Positions 1 through 46,428 of a DNA stretch of 46,428 nucleotides are shown here, in pieces. A model generated the notes under the pieces. That model saw only the letters and a program-made list of their open reading frames with translations. It had not been told where the DNA came from and did not search any database. The stretch spans positions 1 to 46,428 of the IMG/VR virus record IMGVR_UViG_3300022920_000012. One strand, written 5' to 3'. Within the stretch, counting starts at the first letter, position 1. The number at the start of each line of letters is the position of its first letter. This DNA comes from a virus. Made by a program: the position numbers and the translations under genes.

Positions 1-2
1 AG

Positions 3-404
3 TTAGATTGGACAGGTCAAGAAAGACCAATAGACTCTGGAACTCGGGACTGGTGGTATAGTGCTAAGGTAACAGATCAAGCTAGGGAAGCGTTAGATGG
101 ATTAGACGACTTAGAAACAGTTCTAGAGGAATTAGCCAACTGGCTACCTAAAGATGCTAAAGTGTGGGGTAACGGAGCAACCTTTGATATTTCTATATTG
201 GAAGATGCTTATCGTCAATGCGATATAGAAACACCTTGGGAGTTCTGGAACATACGCGACGTGAGAACTATTAAGGATATGTATGAATCACAAAGGGGAG
301 GCTTTAGTAAAAAGTCAGGCGGTGTCGCACATAATGCTTTAGATGATGCTATACATCAGGCACAATACACTTGTATGATGTGGAATAAGATAATAGGAGA
401 GTGA
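3..404 (+). CDS. 3'-5' exonuclease, DnaQ/RNase T-like (5' end cut by window edge)
   Basis: Partial copy of the gene that is complete at 45578-46111; the first 44 codons lie outside the window and the frame is open from base 3. The remaining 133 residues keep the later acidic motifs of the DEDDh exonuclease fold: WGNGATFD and the H-x4-D set in HNALDDAIHQ. The family resembles the Rv2179c-type 3'-5' exoribonuclease group, which trims RNA or DNA 3' ends. It differs from the complete copy at a few residues (for example the last residue, E against D), so the two are strain alleles rather than an exact repeat. The stop overlaps a GTG, but the next gene most likely starts at 407. Confidence 0.85.
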   Translation, partial: LDWTGQERPIDSGTRDWWYSAKVTDQAREALDGLDDLETVLEELANWLPKDAKVWGNGATFDISILEDAYRQCDIETPWEFWNIRDVRTIKDMYESQRGGFSKKSGGVAHNALDDAIHQAQYTCMMWNKIIGE

Positions 405-30750: not shown

Positions 30751-32664
30751 TTATTTGTAACCTATTTTCTTGAGAATGTCGTGGGCTTCGTTTACGTACC
30801 AATCGTAATCCATATCTACGGGAAATTCTTCTGGTAAATCCATTAACGGGACAGCACCATCTGAGCGAGGAACTTTATTACCATTGGTATTGTAACGTAT
30901 CATATCTAATTCGTGGCATCCGTAATACCACCTAATAGCCTTGCCGATAATCTGACCTTCGTATACTGCTCCGCCATTTACAGTTCTCAAAGTTAGAAAT
31001 TTAGTTACGTCTTTACACGCCATTATAGTTTCTATAGGTAGTGTTCCGTCTTTCAAAAACGCCTTAACAGCTTCCGTACAAATATCATTTGTAGGATTAC
31101 TTCTCAAACTATAAAAATGTTCTCGTTGATCCGAATACGCTCCTTTGCCTTTGAACTTACCCTTAGTAGTTACTGCTATGTAGTTATTTACATCTCTACT
31201 ATTTAAGCTGGAATACTCATTAGCTTCCATGTCGTAATTGGTTTCAAATTCCCAATCTTCTACTATCTCATTAGCAGTATCTTCTTTTTCTGGAGGTATC
31301 TTAACTACTATACCATCAGTGTTGGCACTGACTACTGATATACCTGCTAACTCTAATCTCTCTATCAACATCAATAATGATAACTGACCTGTAACAGTAA
31401 CTTGCATCATCAGGTCTGGGGAATACATAAATGACCACTTGCTGCCGAACTTACCGAAAGAACCATTAATAGTAATTTTCAGACTTTCATTTACAATGCC
31501 GTAATCTTCTTTTTCAGCTTGGCTGTTTTTATCATTCTTAGCTTCGGCTTTAGCTTCTAATCTTCTATTCACAATAGATTCATAAATGTCTAAGAATGGT
31601 TCTCCAATGTGTTTAGGGTATAAACGATTATTTAGAATTATACGAGGATAGAATGTGGCAACATCCCATTCCCTTAATATATGACGTTCATTAGTGTGAC
31701 GAATAGATTTCTCACAACTATGTATACCGCCAGTTCCTACCGTGTACTTGGTGGAACCGATTGTGAATTGCAACTTACTTTTCTTATCTGGAAATTCACC
31801 TTTGCGCTTTCCTGATTTAAATCTATCAGTATCGTTCATTTCAAAATTGAACTCTACGTGACCGCTTTTACCTACCGTAAAAGGTAATGAAGTATATTGT
31901 CTTTTGACATCTTTTAGTAATTCCGTTTGAAAAACTATATTATCAGGACATTGAAAGTAATACTGAGTGCCCGTATCCACTTTTGTTCTTTTAGGTGTTA
32001 TGCCGTACTTGTTCTCCATTTCGCATTTTATAACTGACTCAGCTATTTGAGCATCAGACTTAGATCTCAAATCCACTCCGTACTCATCGCTCATAGATTG
32101 ACGTAGTTTTAATTCCTGCTCCATGTGCATTAACAGTAGAGCGGTTACTTCGTTATCATTGCCGCAATATTTACGCATATCTACTAACTGGTGCTCTTCA
32201 ATGGTCGCACTAGGTTCTATTGGCAAGTCTTGCATTTTGGGAGAATGAATACGACCACCGTATATTTTCAATGTGGCTTGTAAGGGAGCGACTTCCATGA
32301 TGTCTATTTGATCTACTTTTAACGCGGCTATACCGAATTGTTTTCTTACTTGCCAAGGTTGCAATCCTTTTATCCCAGCTTTCTTATCCTCATCACTGGG
32401 AATAATAGAATCGTTTATCTTCTTTATAGAGGCGTTAGAAAATCCTGCGGTAGCTGCTTCCAAGATACACATATCATACTTAAGACCGTTATAAGTTATT
32501 AAAGTATATTTAGATAGGATATGTAATATGTTTTTGATATTCAGTTCTGATTCGTTGAACTTTTCAAAATAAATAATATCACCGCCTACTACCTTACGAA
32601 ACATAACCAACAAGTAATTATGATAACACTCTATATCTAAAGTGACTACTTTACTATAATCCAT
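30751..32664 (-). CDS. DNA polymerase, family B
   Basis: 637 residues: replicative polymerase with proofreading. Exonuclease motifs: Exo I LDIECYHN (Asp10, Glu12), Exo II YNGLKYD (Asn59, Asp64), Exo III YCGNDNEVT (Tyr166, Asp170). Polymerase motifs: A DVATFYPRIIL, B KITINGSFGKFGSK, C SANTDGIVV. Motif C reads NTDG where many family B enzymes read DTDS; this variant is common in phage relatives. It overlaps the dCTP deaminase by one base and belongs to the minus-strand replication operon. Confidence 0.92.
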   Translation of the reverse strand: MDYSKVVTLDIECYHNYLLVMFRKVVGGDIIYFEKFNESELNIKNILHILSKYTLITYNGLKYDMCILEAATAGFSNASIKKINDSIIPSDEDKKAGIKGLQPWQVRKQFGIAALKVDQIDIMEVAPLQATLKIYGGRIHSPKMQDLPIEPSATIEEHQLVDMRKYCGNDNEVTALLLMHMEQELKLRQSMSDEYGVDLRSKSDAQIAESVIKCEMENKYGITPKRTKVDTGTQYYFQCPDNIVFQTELLKDVKRQYTSLPFTVGKSGHVEFNFEMNDTDRFKSGKRKGEFPDKKSKLQFTIGSTKYTVGTGGIHSCEKSIRHTNERHILREWDVATFYPRIILNNRLYPKHIGEPFLDIYESIVNRRLEAKAEAKNDKNSQAEKEDYGIVNESLKITINGSFGKFGSKWSFMYSPDLMMQVTVTGQLSLLMLIERLELAGISVVSANTDGIVVKIPPEKEDTANEIVEDWEFETNYDMEANEYSSLNSRDVNNYIAVTTKGKFKGKGAYSDQREHFYSLRSNPTNDICTEAVKAFLKDGTLPIETIMACKDVTKFLTLRTVNGGAVYEGQIIGKAIRWYYGCHELDMIRYNTNGNKVPRSDGAVPLMDLPEEFPVDMDYDWYVNEAHDILKKIGYK

Positions 32665-33209
32665 TATCTCAATCCTTTACTAGGAGTAGTGGAAGTCTGC
32701 CCGTTATACTGACCCTTACTTGCGTAAGAATGTTCTTCTGGTACGGGATCGCATTCAAAGAATACCATTTGACCTATTTTCATTCCTGGTTCCAACACTA
32801 ACGTATGGAATTGAGTAACATTCTTAAGCTCCAATGTTAATGTTGAATCGTTCCAGCCTGGATCGCACCACCCAGCCAACATATGCTGAAGTCCATTACG
32901 AGCTAACGAGCTCTTCAATTTGTATTCGCAAGCTATATTATTGGGTAGGTTAAAAGTTTCATTGGAAGAAGCTAATAAGAATTGATTAGGATGTAGATGA
33001 AAACAAGAACCCTTATCCATAACAAACTCGTGCATCTTTATATTATGTTTATCTTTCAAACTTACGTGTTTTCTAGCTGGAGTAACTTCTTCTAACATTA
33101 CCGTGTTAGATAATGTTATATCTATAGAAGCACCGTTTACATTTTCTAACGGTACGTTTATCACGCCTGACTCTATCAACTCTATCAATTTATTATATGA
33201 TAATAACAT
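32664..33209 (-). CDS. dCTP deaminase-like enzyme
   Basis: 181 residues. Family signatures: KLKSSLARNGLQ (Ser100, Ser101, Arg104), AGWCDPGWNDSTLTLELKN with the catalytic Glu127, and GQMVFFECDPVPE. It converts dCTP to dUTP, feeding the dUMP pool used by the TS-family enzyme two genes upstream. In phages with modified thymine, this supply of dUMP is a common partner; bifunctional dUTPase activity cannot be excluded. Confidence 0.88.
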   Translation of the reverse strand: MLLSYNKLIELIESGVINVPLENVNGASIDITLSNTVMLEEVTPARKHVSLKDKHNIKMHEFVMDKGSCFHLHPNQFLLASSNETFNLPNNIACEYKLKSSLARNGLQHMLAGWCDPGWNDSTLTLELKNVTQFHTLVLEPGMKIGQMVFFECDPVPEEHSYASKGQYNGQTSTTPSKGLR

Positions 33210-33216
33210 AATCGCC

Positions 33217-33624
33217 TCACAGATCAGGATTTACATAGGTACGACTAGGAGCGCATTCTATGTCTGATATCAGCTCACCCAATGAATGTTGAGCACCTGA
33301 TAGATTGTTTTGAAGTATTTCAATGACTATCTGTTTTTCATCATTTCCTATACTATTTATAAATTCCATATACGCTTTGTTCATAATCATCAACTTGCTA
33401 TGTATCTCGAATTTATAATGGTAAGCACATTGTTCTTCAGCTTTAGCAATGTAATGGACTGCTTTGCGCAAATCTTCAATTCCGTTTTTCTTCTTCCATC
33501 TAATGACATATTTGGTAGCACAACCTAATAAATAATTAAGTTGATTCAACATAGCAAAATCCCAATGTTGAAGTTCTGTGTCTGAGTAATGCGTACCACC
33601 TATCTGATAATTGTTAGCTTCCAT
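33217..33624 (-). CDS. DUF3310 protein
   Basis: 135 residues, with the DUF3310 signature HYSDTELQHWDFAMLNQLNYLLGCATKYVIRWKKKNGIEDLRKAVHYIAKAEE at 12-64 (helical, conserved W/Y/K). DUF3310 proteins occur in phage nucleotide-metabolism blocks; the function is unknown, though a nucleotide-binding role has been suggested. The C-terminal half is less conserved. Confidence 0.85.
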   Translation of the reverse strand: MEANNYQIGGTHYSDTELQHWDFAMLNQLNYLLGCATKYVIRWKKKNGIEDLRKAVHYIAKAEEQCAYHYKFEIHSKLMIMNKAYMEFINSIGNDEKQIVIEILQNNLSGAQHSLGELISDIECAPSRTYVNPDL

Positions 33625-34111
33625 TTCGCAATTCCTCCATTTCTTGGATTAATGATTGGTAGAGGTATGTACTACTCATATTTAAATTACCGCATATAAA
33701 TTTTCTCCATGCGTTAAAAGGTGTTAGTGCATTTTTCTCTCCACACTTATATCTTTGCAAACAATACCACATGCCCTCTAATGAGTCAGCTAGTTTCAAT
33801 GTCGCTTTTTCTTCATAAGAGAGATCAAAATTAATATCGTTTTCTTTTTCCCATTGTACTTCCAGTTTGCGTAAAATAACACTTAATTCTGGGTGATCTT
33901 TCTTGACTGGAAAAGGGCTATCTCCAGTGTAAGATTCAGCCGCATCGTGAGTTAAAGCGGCTAATAGTAAATCTTTAGAACAATCAGGGTTAAGGTGTTG
34001 AACTATTAGTGCGACTCCCCATTGATGTTCTGAGTTCTGTTGTTTGGTGACTCCTACTTGCTGATGGAATCTAACCACTCCACCGCTATTTAGTATGTTT
34101 TTAATATTCAT
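33614..34111 (-). CDS. HD-domain nucleotidase (YfbR-like)
   Basis: 165 residues. Metal ligands of the HD family are visible: SEHQWGVAL (His29), LTHDAAES (His55-Asp56), and LADSLEGMWY (Asp). The YfbR type removes phosphate from deoxynucleoside monophosphates. In phages with modified thymine, degrading dTMP or unwanted dNMP would keep the unmodified base out of DNA; that purpose is inferred. Confidence 0.78.
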   Translation of the reverse strand: MNIKNILNSGGVVRFHQQVGVTKQQNSEHQWGVALIVQHLNPDCSKDLLLAALTHDAAESYTGDSPFPVKKDHPELSVILRKLEVQWEKENDINFDLSYEEKATLKLADSLEGMWYCLQRYKCGEKNALTPFNAWRKFICGNLNMSSTYLYQSLIQEMEELRNGS

Positions 34112-35118
34112 AATGATTTCACTCGGTTAAGTAACCAGTCTCGGCAAGCAAAATGCCAATCGTCAGCTACAATATGGGTCAAATAGTTAATAGCATGATT
34201 TGCTCCGCTAGATTTATGTACTAAATAACAACATAGTACAGGCAAAATAAGATCATTGAAATAACGGGACTTCCAACAATCCATTTCGCCTAACTCTTTT
34301 AATCCAAACTCGTCATATACATTGAAGAATTGTTTCAAGTCATGTTCGAAATCATCCATATCTTCTTCAATCATATAAACCGCATTACTTACATTGTCGT
34401 AAGGGGATTCGTGTAATTCGAAGTTGTTTATTAATCTGTCCCAAACTTCACCTCCTGGACCTTCAGTATATACGTGGAATGAGTTACTAACTTGTGTGTA
34501 AGTACCTAATGGTAATCCTAAATGAGCCGCTACGTATTCTTGTATCATACTAAACTGAACTACGTTGGCTCCATAAGCCCCCCATACCATATCGTTGGAT
34601 CTATTATTAACAGTCATGCACAAGTATCCAGATCTAATGCGGAATACGATTTGCATATTACAGGCTTTATCTTTAGTCTGCCTATGTAGATCTTCTTCAT
34701 CCCATATTTGGCATACAGCTTGGCGACTATTGGGATCGTTTTTGAGAGTACGTATTACGGTGGCTAGTTGATCGTTGTCGTAACCTATACCATTACGTAA
34801 TCGGTATCCGTATGGAGCATTGAACACCTTACCATCGTCGCTGTATTCACTCATACGTTTGTTAAATTCACTTAAGAACTTTACATCTTTGCGACCAGCT
34901 AAAATCCATAAAGATTCCATAAGATGGAAGAAAGGATTAGCATCCCTCACCCTACTAATTAGTACTCTCTCCCACGGTTTACGGTAGACTGTAGCTACTG
35001 GCATGGGTATTTCTAGAGTTTGCCCTGCTCGGCTATTTAAGGGTTCTCCGTGTTCACACATAATAGCGATACCTTGAGTTAAAGCATCATTCACGTTATT
35101 CGCATTAATCACTAACAT
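34108..35118 (-). CDS. Thymidylate synthase family enzyme (dTMP synthase or dUMP hydroxymethylase)
   Basis: 336 residues. Catalytic Cys153 is in KDKACNMQ; the phosphate-binding Arg is in NDPNSRQ (Arg132); the RSxD motif is at 173-176; and an Asn at 185 in GAYGANVVQFS matches the residue that selects uracil over cytosine, so dUMP is the likely substrate. HVY at 215-217 is also conserved. It converts dUMP to dTMP or 5-hydroxymethyl-dUMP. The next gene (5-hmdU-DNA-kinase-like) favours the hydroxymethylase reading. AGAGG precedes the start. Confidence 0.82.
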   Translation of the reverse strand: MLVINANNVNDALTQGIAIMCEHGEPLNSRAGQTLEIPMPVATVYRKPWERVLISRVRDANPFFHLMESLWILAGRKDVKFLSEFNKRMSEYSDDGKVFNAPYGYRLRNGIGYDNDQLATVIRTLKNDPNSRQAVCQIWDEEDLHRQTKDKACNMQIVFRIRSGYLCMTVNNRSNDMVWGAYGANVVQFSMIQEYVAAHLGLPLGTYTQVSNSFHVYTEGPGGEVWDRLINNFELHESPYDNVSNAVYMIEEDMDDFEHDLKQFFNVYDEFGLKELGEMDCWKSRYFNDLILPVLCCYLVHKSSGANHAINYLTHIVADDWHFACRDWLLNRVKSL

Positions 35119-35119
35119 A

Positions 35120-35986
35120 TTAACCTCTTCCGTTGTATTTTTGACGTAAGAAACTTTTGTCTGTTCCTACTCGTTGATATTTATCGAACTCACAAAGAGA
35201 ATGTTCTATATCTCTCATTTCCAAAACTGGAAAACCGTTATCGAGATACAAGTCACTGTCTATGAGTAATTGTTGCATTTCTGTGTTAGTTTGGCAAGAG
35301 TTTATTTTACTGTTTAGCGGTCTATTATATAGACGATTCAAACCTCTAACGGCTCCAGGTCCTGCATTAGCCCATGTGTAAATGTCGGTAGCTTCTCTCA
35401 GATATTTAGTGTGTCTCATATCGGTCACTATCTCATAAGCTAAGAAATTACTATATCCAACATGACCGTTAGCAAAAAGATAAAACGCACTTTCTATACT
35501 GTTTATATATTTTAGAGTGTTTGTTATTGCTTCTCGTTTAGCCCATAAAGGCTCTAATATATTCCAGCAAGTATCTTCGTTCTTGGGAACTTTACGACCA
35601 CCAGTGGTAATCATATAAGCTCCGTTGTATATACGCTTATCTGAATCTTTACGATTGTTCAATATAGAATGCGCTTTTTCTGCATCCCAATTAACCATTA
35701 GATCGTCCAACTCTACCATAGTATCTATTAGGTTTATTCTCCTAGCTAAACATAAAGCAAACCACAAATAAGGATGATCTTCCCATCTATCTCTTATATT
35801 TTCTTTAATCCAGATAGTAGTAGTATCTAGTTCACGGAAAACATTGCAAAATTTGTAATCCTGCATGATAGTATCTTGTGTCCAAGGTTTGGATTCACCT
35901 GTTAATTTACGTAGATAAATTTTGTGTCTCTCTTCTATCCACCAATAAAAAGAATCCAACAAATCATCATTAATATTAGAAGTCAT
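35120..35986 (-). CDS. 5-hmdU DNA kinase-like / aGPT-PPlase2 family protein
   Basis: 288 residues. The family's helical domain motifs are clear: KPWTQDTI (33-40), FCNVFRELD (46-54), GPGAVRGLNRL (209-219) and MRDIEHSLCEFDKYQR (257-272). Members act on 5-hydroxymethyluracil in phage DNA, first defined computationally as alpha-glutamyl/putrescinyl-thymine pyrophosphorylase clade 2, later shown for some to phosphorylate hmdU in DNA. ATG 35986 is chosen because GGAA lies 7 nt upstream; ATG 36013 lacks a ribosome site. It overlaps the glycosyltransferase gene by 11 nt, so the two are coupled. Confidence 0.82.
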   Translation of the reverse strand: MTSNINDDLLDSFYWWIEERHKIYLRKLTGESKPWTQDTIMQDYKFCNVFRELDTTTIWIKENIRDRWEDHPYLWFALCLARRINLIDTMVELDDLMVNWDAEKAHSILNNRKDSDKRIYNGAYMITTGGRKVPKNEDTCWNILEPLWAKREAITNTLKYINSIESAFYLFANGHVGYSNFLAYEIVTDMRHTKYLREATDIYTWANAGPGAVRGLNRLYNRPLNSKINSCQTNTEMQQLLIDSDLYLDNGFPVLEMRDIEHSLCEFDKYQRVGTDKSFLRQKYNGRG

Positions 35987-37223
35987 CGAAGTGTTCCATT
36001 TTACGAGCCGCATCTACTATTAATTTTTCAGATGGAATACCTACTGAACCGCCATTACTTTCACTAAATTCTATAATAGCTTTGGCTACATTAACTTTGT
36101 CGAACGCTTCCATCAATTTTAAATTGTTTTCTTGAATATCACTTAGCAACTCTTCATCAGCCATAGCTTCGTCTACTATTTTAGCATATTCCTGAGGACT
36201 ACTATTATAAGGTATTTCTATATAATTTATACCTGATTTGAAAAAGAAACTATTCTTCATGGCTAAATCGGTGCAAACAGGAACACAACCTTGAGCCATT
36301 GCCTCTACCATAACTCTATTAAAGTGGCAACCTAATTTAGAATAATTCAAAGACCAGCTAGGGTCTATTAATAGTTTCACATCGGCTAATAATTCATCTC
36401 TCTTACTGGTGGTTACATAGCCTAAATATTCCATTCCGCTAGACAAGGCGTTTTCCCATATGCGGGAACCGTCTTCCTCCAAATAACACGGTTTGACTTT
36501 TTCTTTGGAAGTCATATAATGATATTCTATACCGCCACCACAGATATATTTATCCGAAAAATCATCCATATAAGGTATAGCTCGTATTAGATCGTCAACG
36601 CGCTTCCATCTTTTAAATGTCTGCAAAGAAACAAAAGCATCATCACGATTAGATATGCTTTTTATGTAGTCTTTCTGTTCATGAGGATTAGGTATGAAGG
36701 CTCTACGAATAGGTAATTCTTCACAAGAATGAAAAGCTGCATCATGAACACATACAACACCGTCTATCTTATCGCATATATTCAATATGTGCGGATACAG
36801 TTTTTTCATATTGCCGTCATGTACTACAGCCAACTGATTAGCAAAGGGCTGATTGAATATTTTAATCCACTGGTCATCCCCTTTAGTCGCTTTGGAACAA
36901 GTAGGTACGGATATATGATGGAGTATTAGGTCAAATTCAGAACTCCACTCTTCCCAGCTCAATCTATCGTTGTGATAATTGAGTTGGTACATCCCATCCC
37001 ATCCATTTTTCTGGTGCATCCATAATCCTAACCCTTCACCGAATTCCCATCCTTGCTGGTCACTGCGATCTTTTGTTTTGGGTGTACCTGTTACGCCTTT
37101 GTTCTTTAACATAACGCTCTGTACGGTGTGACCTAATGCTTTTAAACCGCGAGCCATAAACTCACTATAGTTTACTATACCGCCCCAATCCTGTATTTGA
37201 AAATGAGTTATTAATATATTCAT
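35976..37223 (-). CDS. Glycosyltransferase, GT4-like (GT-B fold)
   Basis: 415 residues. N-terminal Rossmann start MNILITHFQIQDWGGIVNYSEFMARGL (first NTP-sugar domain) and the C-terminal donor-site motif MVEAMAQGCVPVCTD of GT4 enzymes. A retaining transferase using a nucleotide sugar is expected. Its overlap with the hmdU-kinase-like gene suggests the acceptor is a modified base in phage DNA rather than LPS or protein. GAGGAAGGATT before the ATG is a strong ribosome site. Confidence 0.82.
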   Translation of the reverse strand: MNILITHFQIQDWGGIVNYSEFMARGLKALGHTVQSVMLKNKGVTGTPKTKDRSDQQGWEFGEGLGLWMHQKNGWDGMYQLNYHNDRLSWEEWSSEFDLILHHISVPTCSKATKGDDQWIKIFNQPFANQLAVVHDGNMKKLYPHILNICDKIDGVVCVHDAAFHSCEELPIRRAFIPNPHEQKDYIKSISNRDDAFVSLQTFKRWKRVDDLIRAIPYMDDFSDKYICGGGIEYHYMTSKEKVKPCYLEEDGSRIWENALSSGMEYLGYVTTSKRDELLADVKLLIDPSWSLNYSKLGCHFNRVMVEAMAQGCVPVCTDLAMKNSFFFKSGINYIEIPYNSSPQEYAKIVDEAMADEELLSDIQENNLKLMEAFDKVNVAKAIIEFSESNGGSVGIPSEKLIVDAARKMEHFDDF

Positions 37224-37846
37224 AATCCTTCCTCAAGAGCGATATTACCTTTCTTAACAAAATATTTAATATTATGTTCAGCGAATTTAACATCAGCTAA
37301 CTCACCAGTTTTGGGTATAACATGATTAGCTATTATATAATCTACCACCTCACCTACTGTGTCACACAACTCATCATCAATAGCTATTAAGATAGTGCTT
37401 AATATGCTACCCGACTTACCTTTACCTTGCAATACACAAATAGGATCATCTCTGTTTAAATTAACACGAGGGCTAGAAGTTTTAGGCTTGGTAGATCCCT
37501 TAACCTTATTAGGCTTGGAAGATATTTCTTTCTTAATAACCTTCATTAACTTCTTGCCGATTGCGGGAGTAAAATCAGGGAAGTTATTTTTGGATTCCTC
37601 TAATATTTCCCACACTATATCAGCTAATAATTCTTCGTCATCTACCAAGGCTACATCTGTTTCGCAGATATTTTTGTGTAGCTCGTTCATTTCATCTAGT
37701 GAAAATTGTAAACATAGTTCATCTGCGCTGTCTATAAGAGCCACTGCTTGAGACAAATCATTGTCTAATATATAAGCTGCTAATAACTCTTCATTTTCAC
37801 TTTTCGATTCTACCTTACGGGTATCAAAATCTATAGCATAAAACAT
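37220..37846 (-). CDS. Hypothetical protein, paralogue A (acidic)
   Basis: 208 residues. The C-terminal roughly 45 residues (CDTVGEVVDYIIANHVIPKTG ... FAEHNIKYFVKKGNIALEEGL) match those of the next gene, so the pair share a C-terminal domain. The N-terminal part is acidic (DDEELLADIVWEILEESKNN) and a basic loop (SSKPNKVKGSTKPKTSS) sits between. Unknown function; the stop overlaps the glycosyltransferase start (ATGA). Confidence 0.7.
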   Translation of the reverse strand: MFYAIDFDTRKVESKSENEELLAAYILDNDLSQAVALIDSADELCLQFSLDEMNELHKNICETDVALVDDEELLADIVWEILEESKNNFPDFTPAIGKKLMKVIKKEISSKPNKVKGSTKPKTSSPRVNLNRDDPICVLQGKGKSGSILSTILIAIDDELCDTVGEVVDYIIANHVIPKTGELADVKFAEHNIKYFVKKGNIALEEGL

Positions 37847-37847
37847 A

Positions 37848-38351
37848 TTACTCCTCCAACTTCAAGTGACCTTTGTTAACGAACCACTTGATGTTGTGAG
37901 TCGCATATTGAGCGTCAACACCTAAACCGCTACGAGGGCGTCTATGGTTGTTAACTATATAATTTACTAATTTTTCTACAGTGTCTTCTCCAATAGAAAT
38001 ACCATGATGCAGAGAATTCTCTATTGAACATTCCTTACCTTTATCTAATACGCTGATAACTTTGGCCGACTTGGCAAGGTTGTGGATTTTATCTTCTTTG
38101 GCTTGTTCGTTTTTCTTAGCTTTTTCGATCTTAGCTACTGCTTTGGTCGCTTTATTTTTATGTTGTTCAGCGAACTCTTCAGAATATAAATCTTGATTCT
38201 GAATAGCTCTGGTCACGGCTTTGTCTTTAGATGCAAAGCGTTTAGTAATTTTAAGACCTAACTCATTTGCGAAGCTATTGTTGATATCAGTTATCTCAGC
38301 TAACTTCATTTCTTCAAGTTGGTTTTTAGTGTAAGTTGTTAATGTCTTCAT
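37848..38351 (-). CDS. Hypothetical protein, paralogue B (basic)
   Basis: 167 residues. The same C-terminal domain as the previous gene: EDTVEKLVNYIVNNHRRPRSG ... YATHNIKWFVNKGHLKLEE. The N-terminal part is Lys/Ala-rich and helical (KATKAVAKIEKAKKNEQAK). Likely an ancestral duplication. Basic and acidic N-termini suggest binding of opposite partners. It has its own promoter-like sequence (38387-38415) and the leader motif; function unknown. Confidence 0.7.
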   Translation of the reverse strand: MKTLTTYTKNQLEEMKLAEITDINNSFANELGLKITKRFASKDKAVTRAIQNQDLYSEEFAEQHKNKATKAVAKIEKAKKNEQAKEDKIHNLAKSAKVISVLDKGKECSIENSLHHGISIGEDTVEKLVNYIVNNHRRPRSGLGVDAQYATHNIKWFVNKGHLKLEE

Positions 38352-45577: not shown

Positions 45578-46111
45578 ATGAAACTCAATCACGTAATGAT
45601 AGATTTAGAAACAATGGGGTTAACTCCTGATTCAGCTATTGTCTCGGTAGGAGCAGTAGTGTTTGATCCAAGAGCTAATAAGGTAAGTAAGAAGACTTTC
45701 TATCGGGAGTTAGATTGGACAGGTCAAGAAAGACCAATAGACTCTGGAACTCGGGACTGGTGGTATAGTGCTAAGGTAACAGATCAAGCTAGGGAAGCGT
45801 TAGATGGATTAGACGACTTAGAAACAGTTCTAGGGGAATTAGCCAACTGGCTACCTAAAGATGCTAAAGTGTGGGGTAACGGAGCGACCTTTGATATTTC
45901 TATGTTGGAAGATGCTTATCGTCAATGCGATATAGAAATACCTTGGAAGTTCTGGAACATACGCGACGTGAGAACTATTAAGGATATGTACGAATCACAA
46001 AGGGGAGGCTTTAGTAAAAAGTCTGGCGGTGTTGCACATAATGCTTTAGATGATGCTCTACATCAGGCACAATATACTTGTATGATGTGGAATAAGATAA
46101 TAGGAGATTGA
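45578..46111 (+). CDS. 3'-5' exonuclease, DnaQ/RNase T-like (complete)
   Basis: 177 residues. DEDDh residues: HVMIDLETMGL (Asp9, Glu11), WGNGATFDIS (Asp) and AHNALDDALHQ (His, Asp). The length fits a single-domain exonuclease of the Rv2179c-like type. AAGG precedes the ATG. It trims 3' ends of DNA or RNA; in phages such enzymes help replication or degrade host nucleic acid, but the substrate is not known. First gene after the candidate origin. Confidence 0.9.
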   Translation: MKLNHVMIDLETMGLTPDSAIVSVGAVVFDPRANKVSKKTFYRELDWTGQERPIDSGTRDWWYSAKVTDQAREALDGLDDLETVLGELANWLPKDAKVWGNGATFDISMLEDAYRQCDIEIPWKFWNIRDVRTIKDMYESQRGGFSKKSGGVAHNALDDALHQAQYTCMMWNKIIGD

Positions 46112-46112
46112 G

Positions 46113-46328
46113 ATGAATAATGAAGATAACATTACAGTGACAACTCAGTTAACTGCTAAACGGTTAAAATTTAACAAGTTAGTAGCTTACTCATTTATAA
46201 CGATAGGATTAGTCTTATTAGTATTGGGAGAAACAGAACACTCTAAGGTATGGGGTAGTTTATTTAGCTTGTATGGCTTTGCCCATCTAACAGTAACTCG
46301 TATTAGAATATGGTGGAATCACAAATGA
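46113..46328 (+). CDS. Small membrane protein, 71 aa (second allele)
   Basis: Diverged copy of the gene at 907-1122 with the same two hydrophobic segments and the same RIRIWWNHK end; several substitutions in the N-terminal half (for example TVV against ITV). Here it starts 1 nt after the exonuclease stop with no cupin gene between, so it shows the ancestral or cupin-less arrangement. Confidence 0.75.
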   Translation: MNNEDNITVTTQLTAKRLKFNKLVAYSFITIGLVLLVLGETEHSKVWGSLFSLYGFAHLTVTRIRIWWNHK

Positions 46329-46428
46329 ATTCAGAAGATAACGTGTCTAAGATGAGAATAACTGAGTCTTCAGGAGGATTAGATCCTAAAGAGACTTACC
46401 GATGTGAATTAGAAGGTGGCATGATCTA
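46325..46428 (+). CDS. Hypothetical protein (3' end cut by window edge)
   Basis: Start of the same gene as 1119-1352, apparently identical over its 104 bases, overlapping the previous stop as ATGA. It ends at the window border after 34 codons. Confidence 0.7.
   Translation, partial: MNSEDNVSKMRITESSGGLDPKETYRCELEGGMI

Follow-up and report, generated by a model that had tools for sequence, protein, structure and literature searches.

The window analysed here is a 46,428-nucleotide (nt) stretch of viral DNA, positions 1 to 46,428 of the IMG/VR record IMGVR_UViG_3300022920_000012, and its subject is a tightly packed block of six open reading frames on the minus strand, 32664-37223, predicted to form and glycosylate 5-hydroxymethyl-2'-deoxyuridine (5-hmdU). 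An earlier, sequence-only reading of this DNA had placed six genes here, and all six are present within the same limits, with Pfam E values from 8e-50 to 7e-8. They are transcribed in the order GT4 glycosyltransferase, HMUDK_hel, thymidylate synthase (TS)-like enzyme, HD protein, DUF3310 protein and dCTP deaminase, followed by the DNA polymerase gene:

35976..37223, minus strand: GT4 (GT-B fold) glycosyltransferase, 415 aa; Pfam Glycos_transf_1 E 3e-8, AlphaFold2 model and family context; predicted to glycosylate 5-hydroxymethyl-dU in DNA
35120..36013, minus strand: HMUDK_hel (PF18723; named 'aGPT-Pplase1' in phage records), 297 aa; Pfam E 8e-50; predicted base-presenting DNA-binding partner
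34108..35118, minus strand: TS-like enzyme, predicted dUMP hydroxymethylase, 336 aa; Pfam Thymidylat_synt E 3e-22; Cys153, Asn185
33614..34111, minus strand: HD-domain nucleotide phosphohydrolase, 165 aa; Pfam YfbR-like E 5e-9; PHROG 6047 E 9e-34; PHROG 7076 'dATP triphosphohydrolase' 2e-13
33217..33624, minus strand: DUF3310 protein, 135 aa; Pfam E 7e-8; PHROG 5839 E 5e-27; PHROG 236 'nucleotide kinase' 7e-14
32664..33209, minus strand: dCTP deaminase, 181 aa; Pfam DCD E 5e-32; PHROG 1663 2e-47; synteny; predicted dUTP/dUMP supply
30751..32664, minus strand: DNA polymerase, 637 aa, the next gene after dCTP deaminase; PHROG 1252 E 3e-182

The overlap of the GT4 gene with HMUDK_hel, noted before, is confirmed and measures 38 nt as called; it becomes 11 nt (ATGACTTCTAA) with the HMUDK_hel start at Met10 (about 35986), the onset of the conserved part and the probable start. 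The gene order is kept in relatives of about 38-97% identity and is collinear with that of Pseudomonas phage M6. The dCTP deaminase gene was seen in close kin of the window only and is missing from one relative, L004. The reading favoured below, which is considered probable, is that 5-hmdU made by the cassette replaces part or all of the thymidine and is then glycosylated in DNA by GT4, with HMUDK_hel as the base-presenting partner.

HMUDK_hel and its partners

The HMUDK_hel protein matches PF18723 over profile positions 3-276 of 281. It had been assigned to an 'aGPT-PPlase2/HMUDK' family acting on 5-hmdU in DNA; the association with 5-hmdU DNA stands, but the protein is neither a kinase nor an aGPT-PPlase2 (PF18724, ADDT). 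A P-loop was not found in it, a Walker A search of the window matched the primase only, and the protein consists of the helical domain PF18723 alone. Its AlphaFold2 model, built from 49 sequences, has a predicted local distance difference test score (pLDDT) of 93.6. The top match in the VIA comparison is the PaMx11 gp46 glycinyltransferase (8z2n, Z 11.6), and the list contains a series of helix-hairpin-helix (HhH) DNA glycosylases, one of them, MjOgg, bound to DNA (3knt, Z 11.1). Helical proteins can reach a high Z by chance; the top rows here nearly all belong to one superfamily. A sequence search against the PDB gave no match even at E 10, and fold comparison alone succeeded. The model predicts an HhH DNA-glycosylase fold for HMUDK_hel, and a DNA binder that flips bases is the best reading of the protein.

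HMUDK_hel loci were taken from IMG/VR and from phage records, with kinase, TAGT (PF20691), GT4, ADDT and other genes marked by profiles built for the analysis, and near-copies were collapsed into 110 clusters at 90%. A kinase accompanies HMUDK_hel in 23 clusters and TAGT or GT4 in 72, and in none do both occur (Fisher 5e-14). The alternation is as strict among the 83 clusters that were fetched by HMUDK_hel alone (kinase 23, TAGT or GT4 45, both 0; 8e-11). TAGT and GT4 likewise never share a cluster (0 of 110). ADDT stands alongside the kinase in 18 of 19 clusters and alongside a glycosyltransferase in none, and pyridoxal phosphate (PLP)-type tailoring genes are found at ten kinase loci and at no glycosyltransferase locus. 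At least as drawn on the HMUDK_hel tree, 14 changes among kinase, TAGT and GT4 are needed, so the exclusion does not stem from one old split. The exchange can be seen among close relatives: L003 and L029 carry GT4 as the window does, while L004, whose HMUDK_hel is 62% identical and whose gene order otherwise agrees from DUF2800 through to the polymerase, has a pair of TAGT genes where GT4 would stand. These three and the window form one marked set on the tree.

A different role, in which HMUDK_hel is an enzyme in its own right that alters or excises 5-hmdU without a partner, with GT4 working unaided on DNA as the alpha-glucosyltransferase (AGT) of T4 does, is rather unlikely. In its favour, 21 residues of the protein are invariant among 49 diverse sequences, a number that may exceed the needs of a scaffold, and its fold is also that of gp46, a glycinyltransferase. 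Furthermore, the GT4 enzymes found beside TET/JBP dioxygenases, described below, manage without a nearby HMUDK_hel, a situation that fits a different substrate there. Against such independence, HMUDK_hel is retained whether the route runs through the kinase or through a sugar, and in Bacillus phage SBSphiC the kinase and HMUDK_hel form one polypeptide of 636 aa. A search for fusions of HMUDK_hel with a glycosyltransferase found none. A weak hhalign alignment with ADDT (E 0.016, probability 2.9%) matches Glu194 to the catalytic Lys and the invariant Asp210 to the catalytic Asp. The placement is at most a lead; if it holds, Glu or Gln at the likely catalytic Lys position would speak against an OGG-like lyase chemistry.

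Several HMUDK_hel loci have other neighbours. In L081 (596-4031), HMUDK_hel lies with APS-kinase-like, sulfotransferase-like and, judged by the N-terminus, LmbE-looking proteins around TS, and the product is possibly a sulfated thymine. Upstream of HMUDK_hel and TS, L090 (4848-7879) has a GT4-like enzyme and a PIG-L (N-acetylglucosamine de-N-acetylase-like) gene, and a glucosamine-type base is possible there. In L095 (6153-6992) and L106 (6138-6992), which have no kinase or glycosyltransferase, a methyltransferase-like gene (called from Pfam in L095 and by likeness in L106) lies directly upstream of HMUDK_hel and TS; its product is possibly another catalytic head. Radical SAM genes and glycosyltransferase-like proteins, most of the latter without a significant Pfam match, stand beside HMUDK_hel and TS in L007, L093, L103 and L107.

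The TS-like enzyme and the glycosyltransferase

The best PDB match of the TS-like enzyme is MilA, a CMP 5-hydroxymethylase (E 6e-26), and every thymidylate synthase ranks lower. Asn185, to which the sequence-only reading had given a uracil-selecting role, is indeed at the dUMP-discriminating Asn position of thymidylate synthase, where cytosine enzymes have Asp. In a residue table of 137 proteins, the window included, Asn is found at this position in 133, and Trp at the position equivalent to Trp80 in none; Trp is missing there from MilA as well. The stretch with Trp80 and Trp83 in thymidylate synthase (numbered as in E. coli) corresponds to RMSEYSDDG in the window. From TS mutants, loss of Trp80 is expected in a hydroxymethylase. 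Because of Asn185, the lost Trp80 position and MilA as the best match, dUMP hydroxymethylation, proposed earlier, is the best reading of this enzyme at the level of its sequence.

That the enzyme instead makes dTMP or hydroxymethylates dCMP, so that 5-hmdU is not formed, is improbable. The TS family spans all three activities, and the related cassette of Brevibacterium phage LuckyBarnes has been described with a predicted dCMP hydroxymethylase (PMC6588365). Asn185 in place of Asp argues against the dCMP version, and the lost Trp80 position together with the MilA match against the dTMP version. The LuckyBarnes TS-like protein has Asn, not Asp, and the TAGT genes of that phage, whose host is B. 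iodinum ATCC 15728, adjoin HMUDK_hel in the order TS-TAGT-TAGT-HMUDK_hel. A cytosine-type Asp is found at the base-selecting position in four loci with TAGT and HMUDK_hel (L015, L018, L019 and L025), and HMUDK_hel may serve 5-hydroxymethylcytosine too. Microbacterium phage Zayuliv (L199) also has HMUDK_hel, TAGT and a TS-like enzyme with the cytosine-type Asp.

The GT4 protein has a match to Pfam glycosyltransferase group 1 and a GT-B fold. Its AlphaFold2 model was built from 8 sequences (pLDDT 80.5), and T4 AGT occupies the top five rows of the VIA comparison (Z 26.1-25.1), two of these entries containing DNA with 5-hydroxymethyluracil (5-hmU). The second Glu of the EX7E motif, E307, is present and is Asp in some relatives; in an alignment read by eye, no acidic residue stands eight residues before it.

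The distribution of the GT4 family was mapped with profile scans, one over viral contigs and another over 84,980 species of bacteria and archaea, with the window included and contig repeats removed. Among 84 loci, HMUDK_hel lies within 6.5 kb in 55, a TET/JBP dioxygenase adjoins GT4 in 25, TS is found at the contig edge in three, and one has another setting; after collapse at 90% identity the 47 remaining loci divide into 35, 10, 1 and 1. The TET/JBP members that were scanned match Pfam Tet_JBP with E down to 1e-26, the usual gap to GT4 is 0-7 nt, and the TET-linked GT4 members constitute one clade. The single match in a cellular genome is on a contig of a metagenome-assembled genome that itself has the HMUDK_hel-GT4-TS arrangement and is phage-like. 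The family is essentially viral. Neither its HMUDK_hel-linked nor its TET-linked form has a relative among 50,697 phage records. A TET/JBP dioxygenase occurs neither in the window nor in any HMUDK_hel locus examined. In L183, L189, L161 and 22 other loci the dioxygenase is followed closely by GT4, and the neighbours are, by eye, clamp- and clamp-loader-like, giving these loci a T4-like look. The TET/JBP-GT4 pairs are likely a DNA glycosylation system of their own, one with no representative in the deposited phages.

The sharing of one GT4 family by two different routes to a hydroxymethylated pyrimidine argues strongly for DNA as the acceptor, and by its genomic setting the substrate of GT4 is very probably DNA, not lipopolysaccharide (LPS). 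It is quite improbable that the enzyme modifies a host surface polysaccharide or a protein, for instance in superinfection exclusion, and lies beside 5-hmdU genes by chance, the 5-hmdU in DNA being modified otherwise or not at all. Many GT4 enzymes do glycosylate LPS, capsule or protein, and TarM (Z 24.7), HepE (24.4), PimA and an LPS enzyme are among the second tier of structural matches. A surface acceptor, however, does not agree with the near absence of the family from cellular genomes, with the position of 80 of the 84 loci near HMUDK_hel or TET/JBP, or with the replacement of GT4 by TAGT in the same slot and its constant separation from the kinase.

The proposed route and known systems

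All of the following scheme is predicted: each enzymatic activity, the sequence of steps, a complex of HMUDK_hel with GT4, the nature of the sugar and the advantage to the phage. The dCTP deaminase would supply dUTP and dUMP, and the TS-family enzyme would convert dUMP to 5-hmdUMP. Competing thymidine nucleotides would probably be removed by the HD protein, which probably depletes dTMP and dTTP or another dNTP. 5-hmdUMP would reach the triphosphate through DUF3310, possibly a nucleotide kinase for 5-hmdUMP like T7 gp1.7, or through host kinases, and 5-hmdUTP would presumably be incorporated by the phage polymerase. After replication, HMUDK_hel would bind duplex DNA and offer the flipped 5-hmdU to the overlapping GT4, which would move a sugar from a host nucleoside diphosphate (NDP)-sugar onto the hydroxymethyl oxygen. 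The resulting thymine would resemble base J and block nucleases of the host. The sugar donor is likely the host's, since no sugar-nucleotide genes were recognised among the families scanned in the window. T4 beta-GT is described (PMC4111573) as glucosylating 5-hmU in duplex DNA only if it is mispaired with G, so well-paired 5-hmU may need help in flipping. The PHROG name of the HD protein, dATP triphosphohydrolase, had suggested a Z-genome system, which was rejected because the families scanned yielded none of the remaining components of such a pathway.

That the sugar is already attached at the nucleotide level, to 5-hmdUMP or 5-hmdUTP ahead of replication, is very improbable: the timing of sugar addition in phage SP-15 is reported to be unclear (PMC5977210), but a protein of DNA-glycosylase fold is conserved beside the glycosyltransferase, and the GT4 model resembles T4 AGT, an enzyme acting on DNA.

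Several points weigh against glycosylation of 5-hmdU in DNA with the help of HMUDK_hel. The alternation counts rest on related sequences, and the tree and the clustering lessen this dependence without removing it. Fifteen of the 110 HMUDK_hel clusters have no detected kinase, TAGT or GT4, several of them having other glycosyltransferase-like or tailoring genes. The four TAGT loci with a cytosine-type hydroxymethylase mean that HMUDK_hel is not strictly a uracil marker. An interaction of HMUDK_hel with GT4 was deduced from gene overlap and adjacency only. The confidence of the GT4 model is only moderate, the lead of T4 AGT over other GT-B enzymes is modest (26.1 vs 24.7), and similarity of fold to AGT does not show the substrate.

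The closest known pathway is that of phage M6, which contains 5-(2-aminoethyl)-2'-deoxyuridine (5-NedU). M6 has the collinear series HMUDK_hel, TS-like enzyme, HD, DUF3310 and polymerase with a dUMP-type hydroxymethylase, and its HMUDK_hel protein, gp055, is the neighbour of the kinase gp054 (PF18748). M6 also has ADDT (gp051, PF18724) and tailoring enzymes, whereas in the window these are absent and GT4 takes the place of the kinase. Neither PF18748 nor PF18724 has a match in the whole records of the window, L002, L003, L004 and LuckyBarnes, the M6 control being positive for both. Because both families are absent from the whole genome, the predicted pathway of the window lacks the phosphorylation step and departs from the M6/ViI route at 5-hmdU; the earlier proposal that its first steps are those of the ViI type does not hold for that step. 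In the M6 record, gp054 (L030, 6429-6992) is annotated as 'terminase small subunit' although it is a P-loop protein matching the 5-hmdU DNA kinase family PF18748; Ab19 gp12 (L195, 3914-4483), with the same annotation, is a P-loop protein matching other P-loop and kinase families.

Pelagiphages of the HTVC023P type and LuckyBarnes combine, like the window, a hydroxymethylase, HMUDK_hel and a glycosyltransferase, and LuckyBarnes also lacks the kinase. Their glycosyltransferase is a GT-A-fold TAGT (in pelagiphages by annotation name), while the GT4 of the window has an unrelated fold. T4 AGT (GT63), beta-GT (GT72) and T6 TAGT also place a sugar on a hydroxymethyl-pyrimidine in phage DNA, AGT being the solved structure nearest to the GT4 model. 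The T-even enzymes, however, use cytosine-derived bases, whereas the window GT4 matches Pfam glycosyltransferase group 1 and adjoins a uracil-type hydroxymethylase. The predicted product type, a glycosyl-O-methyl-uracil in DNA, is that of base J of kinetoplastids. Base J begins with thymine oxidised in DNA, while in the window the hydroxymethyl group is proposed to be made on the nucleotide. Sugar-bearing thymine derivatives are present in the DNA of Bacillus phage SP-15 and Yersinia phage YerA41 as well, but SP-15 has a dihydroxypentyl-uracil and the modification of YerA41 is about 1 kDa.

The record probably represents a complete or almost complete phage genome, one that closes into a circle and whose assembly combined two variants with slight differences. 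Window positions 1-404 recur at 45708-46111 (97%), and 896-1222 recur at the very end, 46102-46428 (91%); the terminal repeat is imperfect, with an insertion of about 490 bp at the left end. No nucleotide match to the replication half of the window was found among deposited phages. Just upstream of GT4, orf208 and orf167 (37220-38351) have a similar C-terminal stretch (35-39% identity), belong to no Pfam family and are kept in L002-L004.

Two proposed branches from 5-hmdU

Parts of this idea have been noted before: DNA modification was already suggested for pelagiphages (PMC9599517) and for LuckyBarnes (PMC6588365). No description of the kinase/glycosyltransferase alternation, the virus-specific GT4 family or the pairing of GT4 with both TET and HMUDK_hel was found within the searchable literature. 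The alternation and the GT4 family lend good support to the sugar-bearing thymidine of the sequence-only reading and sharpen it, and that product is still a prediction.

The phages in which thymidine hypermodification has been elucidated phosphorylate 5-hmdU and attach amino acids. The present locus and those related to it suggest that a second branch, leading to a sugar, starts from 5-hmdU and relies on the same DNA-reading protein. The presence of HMUDK_hel with either a sugar- or a phosphate-adding enzyme, never with both, suggests a swappable DNA-writing machine. A broader generalization, put forward tentatively and with somewhat less than an even chance of being right, is that HMUDK_hel serves quite generally as the subunit of a modular DNA writer that offers a flipped hydroxymethyl-pyrimidine to one of several exchangeable catalytic heads: the kinase, the GT-A TAGT, the GT-B GT4 and perhaps other glycosyltransferases, sulfotransferases or methyltransferases. 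Among environmental phages the sugar head would then be no rarer than the kinase head known from cultured ones, and glycosyl-thymine DNA would be widespread. HMUDK_hel gains a testable role, for which LuckyBarnes is a suitable cultured phage, the GT4 family likely comprises new DNA glycosyltransferases, and base-J-like thymines are predicted in many marine and freshwater phages.

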